Positions 5,588-8,293 of a DNA stretch of 64,000 bases are shown here, in pieces. Source of the stretch: Blautia sp. (GTDB taxonomy: Bacteria; Bacillota; Clostridia; Lachnospirales; Lachnospiraceae). The stretch covers positions 1 to 64,000 of the forward strand of contig JARIAR010000062.1 of the NCBI GenBank assembly GCA_029257805.1, read 5' to 3'. The translations under genes and the position numbers were made by a program. The notes under the pieces are model-generated. The model saw only the letters and a program-made list of their open reading frames with translations, was not told where the DNA came from and did no database searches. Numbering within the stretch: position 1 is the first letter of the stretch; each line of letters starts with the position of its first letter.

Positions 5588-5898
5588 GTACTGTTTCCTC
5601 CATTTTCTTTGTTTGAAAGTCCGGCTTCCGTACACCACTTGCACTTATGTACAAGGTGAAATGGGGTGCATCTGTCCGCTGCTTTCTTTTTTAGTTCCTA
5701 ATTGGGGTGCCTCGGTAAACACCCAGCCGCTTCTGGCGAATAACGGCCTTTCCGAAATTTTTGACCAACAGGTCAACGTTGCCTCTCGGTATTAGGCAAT
5801 ACATGCTGAAAACTTTTCAAACAGTATGAACAACCTTTCCGGGTGTTTCACACTGCAGCCGCACGTTTCACAAACATCACCTCTGTGATTTACAAAAA
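5588..5898 (-). ncRNA. Foldable leader between rpmJ and rpsM (candidate cis-regulatory RNA)
   Basis: This stretch holds no credible gene. In the direction of transcription it contains several hairpins in close order: TTGCCT/AGGCAA, TTGACC/GGTCAA with loop TGTT, GCCG/CGGC, GGGTG/CACCC, and TTGTAC/GTGCAA with loop ATAA just before the rpsM ribosome site. Two of the loops share TACCGAG. Ribosomal operons often carry autoregulatory leaders, so a binding site for a product of this operon is a reasonable guess, but I recognise no described family. Confidence 0.45.
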
Positions 5899-6134: not shown

Positions 6135-7001
6135 TTAATTCCCTTCAAAAATTTTTGCAATAGGAGAATCCTGTGAAAGAATTACGGTTTTATCCTGCCC
6201 CTTCATAGACTTTTTCAAAGCATCAAGACTTCTTACAAATGAATAGAAATCACTTCTTCCTTCTTCCCCATAAGCCTGGGCAAGAGTTTTCATATATTCC
6301 TGCTCTCCTTCTGCTTTTAAAATCTCAGCCTGTTTTTCTGCTTCTGAAATTTTAATTGCAATCTCTTTATCTGTAGTATTTCGAATTACTTTTGCCTCAG
6401 AACTTCCCTGTGCTTTAAATGTCGCAGCAATATTATCTCTTTCTGAAATCATACGCTCATACACTGCATCCTTATTATCTTCCGGAAGATCCAGCTGCTT
6501 TGTTTCAAAAAGAAGTAACGAAACCCCATACTGTTCCATATTATTTCCAATTGACTCCATGACTGCTTGTGACAATTCACCGTCACGGCTTGTAATAACC
6601 TCATCCTGCGACATGCTACTGATCACATTTTTAGTTGCATTATAAACAGCTGTATTAATTCGGCTTTCCCCATTCTCTACAGAAGAATTCAATGTTTGTG
6701 CAAATTTTAACGGATCCTGTATTTTCCATAGAACATAGCTGTCCGAAATCATTGTTTTTTTATCCTTTGTAATTACATCAGAAGGCGATAGGTCATACAG
6801 CAAGGTTTCTTTCGGAAGCGTAGCTGTTGTTTCCAGGAAAGGAATTTTCAGACTGATTCCCGGAGAACTAATAACACGTTTTACTTTTCCAAACTGCCGT
6901 ACCAATTTATACTCATTCTGTGCTGTAACCGTAATGGATGCAGCCGCCCCCAGAAGAACTGCTACACTTCCTAATATGATAAATAATTTTTTATTTTTCA
7001 T
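6135..7001 (-). CDS. hflC: SPFH/Band 7 membrane protein HflC
   Basis: Partner of HflK in a membrane-anchored SPFH cage that, in Escherichia coli, encloses and modulates the FtsH protease. The 288 residues start with one transmembrane segment (about 7-27), followed by the SPFH domain (about 28-200) and an Ala/Glu/Lys-rich coiled coil containing EKQAEILKAEGEQEYM. Its ATG overlaps the hflK stop by four bases. The unit lies behind a putative Mn2+ riboswitch (see 8081-8253). Confidence 0.9.
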   Translation of the reverse strand: MKNKKLFIILGSVAVLLGAAASITVTAQNEYKLVRQFGKVKRVISSPGISLKIPFLETTATLPKETLLYDLSPSDVITKDKKTMISDSYVLWKIQDPLKFAQTLNSSVENGESRINTAVYNATKNVISSMSQDEVITSRDGELSQAVMESIGNNMEQYGVSLLLFETKQLDLPEDNKDAVYERMISERDNIAATFKAQGSSEAKVIRNTTDKEIAIKISEAEKQAEILKAEGEQEYMKTLAQAYGEEGRSDFYSFVRSLDALKKSMKGQDKTVILSQDSPIAKIFEGN

Positions 7002-8035
7002 TGGTTCTCCTCCGTATTTTCTGTCTCTGTATTTTCATTCGTACTTTCCACTGCTGCTTCCCCTTGATCTGAAGCGTCTTCCTGAGAAATAAACGGATCT
7101 AAAGGAAGAAGTTTTTGCACACCATTTCCACTGTCAATAACAATCTTCATATCCGGCAGTACGTCTTCCATTGCTTCAAAAAACATACGCTGTTTTGTAA
7201 CAACCGGATTCTTGCTGTATTCTTCATACATAGCATTAAAACGTGCAACCTCTGCTTCTGCTTCGTTTATTCGCATCTGCTTCTGAGCCTCCGCATCCTG
7301 AATTACCTGATCCGCCCGAGCTTCCGCTTCCGGCATTTTTTCGTTTCTATACTTGTTTGCGTTATTGATGGCTGTCTCTTTTCCCTGTTTTGCTGTTTCA
7401 ACTGCCTTAAAAGCTCTCATAACTTCCTGTGTTGGTGGCTCTGAATCCTGTATGGTAATATTCACAAGCTGAATTCCCATATCCTGTTCTTCGAGCCCTT
7501 TCATGATCATTTCCTTTATTTTTCCCTGTATCTCACTTTTTCCTGTTGTAAGAACGTCATCCACTCCATAATTTGCAATCACTGTACGAATACAGCTCTG
7601 GGCAAGATTTTTTAATATATTTTCCGGTTCTTTTGTCTCATACAAGTATTTCACAGGCTCTGCAATGCGATATTCCACAAAGAAATCAACATCTATAAAG
7701 TTATAATCCGCAGTGATCATCAGCCCTTCCTGCTCCACCGTCTCATTATTTTCAAGACTGTATCCTATAGGAAATCCCTGAATGGTAGTATTAACTTTTT
7801 CCACTTTTTGAATAAATGGAAGCTTAAAATGAAGACCTGTTTCAGATACGGCTTTTGGAACTCCAAAAGTTGTAAGAACCGCCTGCTCCTGCTCCTGGAT
7901 CTGATAAGTGGCATCAGTAGCCATCACTGCTACAAGTGCAATACCTGCAACTCCTATTGCAGCTTTTTTAAAATGCTTTCCTGGCTTTGGTACTTTTGAA
8001 AATATGTTCGTTTCTCCATTTTGAAATTCTCTCAC
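6998..8035 (-). CDS. hflK: SPFH/Band 7 membrane protein HflK
   Basis: Larger partner of HflC. The 345-residue protein has a cytoplasmic N-terminal tail, one transmembrane segment at about residues 24-42, an SPFH domain with EQEQAVLTTFG at its start, a long coiled coil (EAEARADQVIQDAEAQKQM, about 232-250) and an acidic Asn/Glu-rich tail. The start is GTG with AGGAGG 6 bases upstream. It is the first gene behind the leader at 8081-8253. The link of HflKC to a metal-sensing leader is an inference. Confidence 0.9.
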   Translation of the reverse strand: MREFQNGETNIFSKVPKPGKHFKKAAIGVAGIALVAVMATDATYQIQEQEQAVLTTFGVPKAVSETGLHFKLPFIQKVEKVNTTIQGFPIGYSLENNETVEQEGLMITADYNFIDVDFFVEYRIAEPVKYLYETKEPENILKNLAQSCIRTVIANYGVDDVLTTGKSEIQGKIKEMIMKGLEEQDMGIQLVNITIQDSEPPTQEVMRAFKAVETAKQGKETAINNANKYRNEKMPEAEARADQVIQDAEAQKQMRINEAEAEVARFNAMYEEYSKNPVVTKQRMFFEAMEDVLPDMKIVIDSGNGVQKLLPLDPFISQEDASDQGEAAVESTNENTETENTEENQ

Positions 8036-8080
8036 TGTGCTCCTCCTTTATGTTCTGAAAACTTTTTGTTTTGCATTTTT

Positions 8081-8253
8081 AAAGAAAAGAAAAAGACTTT
8101 CGTTTCGGACACGTACTCTTCATGTCTCAAAACAAAAGTCTCGCTGATTATCTCATATTGCGGGTCATTCTATGTACCGTTCTGACGCATATATGTACCA
8201 CTTTTCTGCGAAAACAAACTATGTCTTTCAGATAATGGCCGCTACTCCCTTTT
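8081..8253 (-). ncRNA. Putative yybP-ykoY (Mn2+) riboswitch with overlapping terminator, before hflK
   Basis: The minus-strand RNA begins AAAAG GGAGUAGC (8253-8241) and ends AGCGAGA CUUUU (8145-8134). This matches the two diagnostic parts of the manganese riboswitch: P1 plus the GGAGUAGC loop, and the AGCAAGA-type loop plus the P1 partner. AAAAG pairs with CUUUU to close P1, and ATTATCT with AGATAAT forms an inner helix. The P1 3' strand is also the 5' arm of a 12-bp terminator (8141-8130 with 8105-8094) followed by the U-rich tract 8093-8081. Closing P1 with bound metal would block the terminator: an ON switch. Promoter and leader read only into hflK-hflC. Confidence 0.8.
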
Positions 8254-8264
8254 CTTTGTACAAG

Positions 8265-8293
8265 ATATTATCATACTCATTTCTAAAAATCAA
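8265..8293 (-). promoter_or_regulatory. Promoter of the riboswitch-hflK-hflC unit
   Basis: Minus strand TTGATT (8293-8288) and TAATAT (8270-8265), 17 bases apart. Transcription would start near 8258, a few bases before the riboswitch P1 strand. Confidence 0.75.

Follow-up and report, generated by a model that had tools for sequence, protein, structure and literature searches.

The leader of the hflK-hflC operon in the window (the whole 64,000-nucleotide stretch of Blautia DNA that was analysed) is very probably a riboswitch of the yybP-ykoY (Mn2+) class that turns transcription ON, by which HflK-HflC would be brought into action when Mn2+ is high. Manganese-sensing riboswitches normally sit before metal pumps. 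Read 5' to 3' on the minus strand, the leader and operon consist of AAAAG, GGGAGUAGC, two hairpins, GCGAGAC, CUUUU, a terminator, a U-rich tract, AGGAGG, hflK and hflC (Table 1). A preliminary description of this DNA had named AAAAG, the L1 loop strands, CUUUU, the terminator, the U-rich tract and hflK, and all of them are present on that strand. Its promoter fared less well: TTGATT-17-TAATAT is legible by eye but weak, and a simple sequence scan called neither this promoter nor the terminator of the window. Both HflK and HflC of the window match Band_7 (Pfam). HflC adjoins HflK in 79 of 80 named loci, and the remaining locus ends 95 nt past the hflK match. An S4-Clostridia ribosomal protein leader (RF03140, window 5697-5752, minus strand, 49.2 bits) stands before ribosomal protein genes, which is an ordinary arrangement.

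Table 1. Elements of the hflK leader and operon in the window.
Feature	Position	Strand	Basis
Predicted aptamer of the yybP-ykoY (Mn2+) riboswitch class, P4-less form	8134..8256	-	R1 111.5 bits, R2 77.2 bits (the aptamer is itself among the building sequences of both models); covariation
P1 switch helix, 5' strand AAAAG	8249..8253	-	Unchanged in 17/17 hflK leaders
P1 switch helix, 3' strand CUUUU	8134..8138	-	Common to P1 and terminator
L1 loop GGGAGUAGC	8241..8249	-	GGGAGUA in 100/100 aptamers of alignment A4
GCGAGAC, 3' side of L1	8138..8144	-	AGAC in 100/100 aptamers of A4
P2 hairpin	8197..8239	-	5 pairs, 3 changed on both sides (17 hflK leaders)
P3, L3 loop and apical stem	8154..8195	-	12 pairs, 4 changed on both sides
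L3 loop UCAGAAC; A8183 is the counterpart of the Mn2+-contacting A41 of L. lactis	8179..8185	-	Comparison with the available text of PMC6754395
Intrinsic terminator hairpin, mutually exclusive with P1	8093..8142	-	-25.5 kcal/mol, z -5.28
U-rich tract of terminator, UUUCUUUUC	8084..8092	-	3' of hairpin
Candidate promoter TTGATT-17-TAATAT, weak	8265..8293	-	Read by eye
Ribosome-binding site AGGAGG of hflK	8042..8047	-	Sequence
hflK, GTG start at 8035	6998..8035	-	TIGR01933 228.5 bits (cut-off 159.4); Band_7
hflC	6135..7001	-	TIGR01932 165.9 bits (cut-off 134.4)

The structure of the leader is conserved beyond chance among hflK leaders. A search for HflK in 60 relatives and in the genome itself gave 24 genomes of the same genus with a close HflK (E<1e-100). 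An intact aptamer was identified in 16 of these genomes and a degenerate one in another (L011); L015 falls at a contig end, G010 has two hflK copies, neither with an intact aptamer, and five genomes (L021-L025) gave no leader match. The 17 aptamers, window included, support P1, a 2-bp helix above L1, P2, P3 and the apical stem. In this alignment of 24 pairs, 99.0% of the cells are paired and seven pairs changed on both sides, giving a covariation score of 0.199 compared with 0.107 in shuffled alignments (0 of 500 shuffles reach 0.199) and at most 0.082 in a slid-partner control. P1 is invariant in the 17-leader set and thus uninformative by covariation there. In alignment A4 (100 aptamers, 95 distinct), three of the five P1 pairs, and 21 of all 24 pairs, change on both sides, and the score is 0.454 compared with 0.149 shuffled, figures that are not independent of the model to which A4 was fitted. 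Taken by itself, the aptamer has no exceptional stability (z -1.50, with 19 of 200 shuffles equally stable), so stability was not counted as evidence.

The expression platform indicates how such a leader would act. The window terminator hairpin, with which 0 of 200 shuffles are equally stable, overlaps CUUUU, as the preliminary description had proposed. All 30 named hflK leaders have the P1 3' strand inside a downstream hairpin and 29 of them have a U-run after it, compared with a hairpin plus U-run in 13.5% for shuffled downstream sequence. In the family set, 64 of the 76 A4 places that offered sufficient sequence (out of 87) have an overlapping hairpin with U-run, compared with 11.5% shuffled. 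When the entire window leader is folded without ligand, the terminator is predicted to form in place of P1. Because the terminator takes the P1 3' strand, Mn2+ should switch hflK-hflC ON, and the ON logic put forward earlier is upheld as a predicted design in which terminator and P1 exclude each other. An ON design is also reported for the L. lactis switch of the class in the available text of PMC9190785 and PMC11087558. When Mn2+ is absent, the terminator hairpin (8142-8093) would capture the P1 3' strand and halt transcription before hflK. Mn2+ bound between L1 and L3 via A8183 would hold P1 and block the terminator, and hflK-hflC would be transcribed.

Some relatives of the leader have decayed. 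L147, the sole exception among the named hflK leaders, is degenerate and its hairpin lacks a U-run, and in L146 (822-920; assembly of G010) the aptamer core is missing by eye and the terminator is kept, a loss that may be real or an assembly effect since this assembly has two hflK copies. It is very unlikely that the window leader is likewise a decayed, unresponsive riboswitch, or a leader that is conserved but attenuates constitutively: these relatives, and the lack of any score from Rfam model RF00080, would fit such a reading, but the window copy has lost none of the invariant positions and has a strong terminator, and base pairs in the leaders of the genus go on changing in a compensatory way.

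The assignment to the yybP-ykoY class had originally been tied to the RF00080 score, and by that check it formally failed: the model gave no match to the window leader, either at its gathering score or at E<=10, and none at E<=10 in the genome itself or in eight sources with sister leaders. This silence is uninformative here, given that none of 146 genomes of the order yields an RF00080 match over the cut-off (17 yield one at E<=0.001), and we set the model aside as arbiter of class; on 14 control genomes it gave matches in three, over the cut-off in two. Weak Rfam matches to the leader region were rejected as far under their cut-offs. Sub-cut-off matches to RF02617 (Streptococcus sRNA 10) were observed at window 8088-8224 and L031 1462-1590, minus strand, and Streptococcus sRNA 10 may itself be a Mn2+ riboswitch. 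A plain 11-base motif was found at three places in the genome, yet its backward control was found at four; the motif alone is thus not specific, and the decision was left to covariance models. A gapped motif found a copy before a P-type ATPase but missed the window copy, because its gap range was too short.

Homology to the class is instead seen with two models of our own. R1, built solely from the 17 hflK leaders (window included), recovers 15 of 21 RF00080-called loci from other families of the order (E<=0.05). R2 was built from the 100 aptamers of A4, including the window and several SPFH leaders; all 17 RF00080-positive genomes (E<=0.001) are R2-positive, an agreement at the genome level in which R2 itself holds five loci from four of the genomes. 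GGGAGUA and the 3' AGAC are invariant over the 100 aptamers. Loop numbering follows the L. lactis aptamer in the available text of PMC6754395 and PMC9190785. There, the L. lactis L3 sequence is UCA41AUUC and the A41-type adenosine is described as an invariable, Mn2+-specific contact (PMC6754395). The adenosine matching A41 is A in 98 of the 98 A4 rows with a letter; the two gapped rows among the 100 (L040 and L051), which derive from RF00080 calls, are misaligned, and both do have P4. Homology by R1 and R2, the invariant L1 and the presence of the Mn2+-contacting adenosine thus bear out the class first proposed, and from the conserved contacts and the co-targets we infer that Mn2+ is the ligand of the window RNA. 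A terminator that answers to an unrelated ligand or to a protein, and resembles yybP-ykoY by accident, has the RF00080 failure as its sole argument and is hardly credible, as R1 recovers RF00080-called loci and has exporter targets in common with them.

The window aptamer departs from the known structures in one helix. For the structures from L. lactis and X. oryzae, the text available to us describes a four-way junction or four helices. In the window, a 9-nt linker joins P3 and the L1 strand with no P4 hairpin; of the 98 correctly aligned A4 aptamers, 97 have a hairpin-free linker of 6-10 nt, and L033 has a short hairpin. Since the RF00080-called L032 and L043 are likewise without P4, this form is a variant inside the class. 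With the L. lactis yoaB type of the class (RF00080), the window leader has in common L1 (GGGAGUAGC/GCRAGAC), a 7-nt L3 that contains UCA and its invariant A, a P1 strand that also belongs to the terminator, and the ON logic. It differs from the yoaB type in this linker, in being unscored by the Rfam model, and in its target, which is an SPFH complex and not an exporter.

Sister switches occur in the same genome. R2 finds three, before hflK (77.2 bits), on C2 (68.1 bits) and on C55 (67.2 bits); R1, with 8 of 883 candidates scored, finds the window copy only. The C55 copy (L031 1497-1591, minus strand) precedes a P-type ATPase (L031 3-1442, a partial reading frame) that is closest to PMR1-type Ca2+ ATPases, and a Streptococcus Mn2+/Ca2+ ATPase is named as a Mn-riboswitch target in the title of one study. 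The C2 copy (L221 2-1516, minus strand) leads an operon for a 151-aa orphan protein with no Pfam match, YccF and an EcsC-family protein. Mn2+ homeostasis genes are controlled by relatives of the window switch and are not the window copy's own target.

Across the family, R1 gave matches in 80 of 397 genomes at 88 places, all of which were examined. Setting the window aside leaves 87 places, at which the first gene that could be classified encodes a member of the orphan family (21), an OadB-type protein (12), a CaCA exchanger (11), a P-type ATPase (10), HflK (9), YccF (6), a CitMHS/ArsB-type transporter (3), a flotillin-like protein (2), a member of an unnamed membrane protein family (2) or, once each, CNNM, MntP, a penicillin-binding protein and another SPFH protein, with none at 7; the commonest target in this sample is thus the orphan family of the C2 operon. 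A second sample of 120 R2 places from 94 genomes of the order (out of at least 150, leaving out 12 already retrieved and the 18 lowest of those listed) gave P-type ATPases (36), CaCA exchangers (31), flotillin-like (7), OadB-type (7), MntP (7), HflK (6), orphan (5), CitMHS/ArsB-type (5) and other SPFH proteins (4), with none at 12. The target was taken as the first reading frame matching a reference set drawn from the R1 sample, with class names verified by Pfam on representatives. Eight (R1) or ten (R2) candidates were scored per genome, of hundreds to about two thousand, so the presence of the switch is a lower bound.

An SPFH protein is encoded by the first classified gene at 12 of the 87 places in the R1 sample and 17 of the 120 in the R2 sample, counts that come from phylogenetically non-independent samples and from two models that both contain SPFH leaders; the first sample leans to hflK because R1 was trained on hflK leaders, and its lowest places may be false (L139 and L140, at 25.5 bits, lie before other genes). 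The SPFH frames start 1 to 340 nt past the aptamer. With the window included, SPFH-linked switches span 19 genera in two families (HflK in 10 genera, flotillin-like in 7 and other SPFH in 2). Among the SPFH targets tested, Band_7 was identified by Pfam in five of five and Flot in two, and the HflK model was over its cut-off in three of three. Proteins classed as flotillin-like reach 246-300 bits where the FloT cut-off is 700, so by that model they are flotillin-like and not FloT.

Other targets are less expected. A Kup-type K+ transporter lies behind the switch at L271, L272, L283 and L294 (models were run on L271, the others were read by eye), an unexpected target for a Mn2+ sensor. OAD_beta proteins lie behind it at L058, L137 and ten more R1 places (Pfam agreed in both tested), and are possibly candidates for an unrecognised Mn2+ export function. 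Non-canonical targets of this kind, namely OadB-type (12/87 and 7/120), CitMHS/ArsB-type (3/87 and 5/120) and Kup-like proteins (4 of the 12 unclassified among the 120, with models on L271 only), could mean that the yybP-ykoY fold is kept while the ligand is another divalent ion or a broader set. We regard this as unlikely, as neither L1 nor the Mn2+-contacting adenosine varies among the aligned letters, and P-type ATPases, CaCA exchangers and MntP together make up 74 of the 120 places in the second sample.

The hflK-hflC target of the preliminary description is upheld. Among the named hflK loci (the best 80 of at least 535 confirmed; L141-L220, which overlap the genomes behind L001-L030), the leader lies upstream of hflK on the same strand in 30 (R1, E<1e-8), in Blautia, Robinsoniella, Marvinbryantia, Murimonas, Konateibacter, Galacturonibacter and others. 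R1 found no leader at the other 50, to which R2 adds none, and one of which (L199) has only 4 nt upstream; riboswitch control of hflK is thus not universal. On an HflK tree made by a quick method (81 rows, 27 of 78 inner branches weak), the state of the leader changes at least seven times, gain and loss being indistinguishable.

In the literature searched, no text links the yybP-ykoY riboswitch to hflK or an SPFH target, in keeping with the earlier remark that HflKC is not known as an established target; the founding 2015 papers (Dambach, Price) fall outside the coverage and could list such targets. No paper on manganese riboswitches in Lachnospiraceae was found there, and the sole match for yybP-ykoY with flotillin was a TerC paper. 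HflKC is an FtsH modulator by family name, and the window proteins resemble the known HflK-HflC in matching both equivalog models (TIGR01933 and TIGR01932), but differ in having a metal riboswitch at the head of their operon, a combination not found in the literature. The genome encodes three FtsH-family proteins over the cut-off, with genes elsewhere than hflK-hflC. During high Mn2+, HflK-HflC may adjust the FtsH membrane protease or membrane organisation, and metal export by the P-type ATPase under the sister switch would form a parallel arm in the same genome.

Links between Mn2+, FtsH and flotillins in B. subtilis make this role plausible. According to the available text of PMC10550928, MeeF co-purified with FtsH, FloT and FloA, and MeeY with FtsH and FloA, and FtsH becomes essential once MeeF and MeeY are both absent. 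YqgP is described in the available text of PMC7231995 as an FtsH adaptor that cleaves MgtE under high Mn2+ and protects against Mn2+. These TerC (MeeF/MeeY) and YqgP links are at the protein level, whereas the window switch precedes the SPFH genes themselves. A term search of an E. coli HflKC paper (PMC12005517) found no mention of manganese, which counts against the role.

For the order as a whole, we consider it likely that the Mn2+ riboswitch of Lachnospirales has a second, non-transport arm that repeatedly controls SPFH scaffolds (HflK-HflC, flotillin-like and other Band_7 proteins), coupling excess Mn2+ to membrane-domain remodelling and FtsH control, and that its carrier is the P4-less form largely missed by Rfam. 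The survey also adds further targets, among them some of no known function, and points to an under-count of a widespread riboswitch class in a major gut order. A metal riboswitch before HflKC and flotillins provides a defined inducer and a direct test of protection against Mn2+ excess and of the FtsH route. Our findings suggest that coping with excess manganese in these bacteria involves membrane reorganisation besides metal export.
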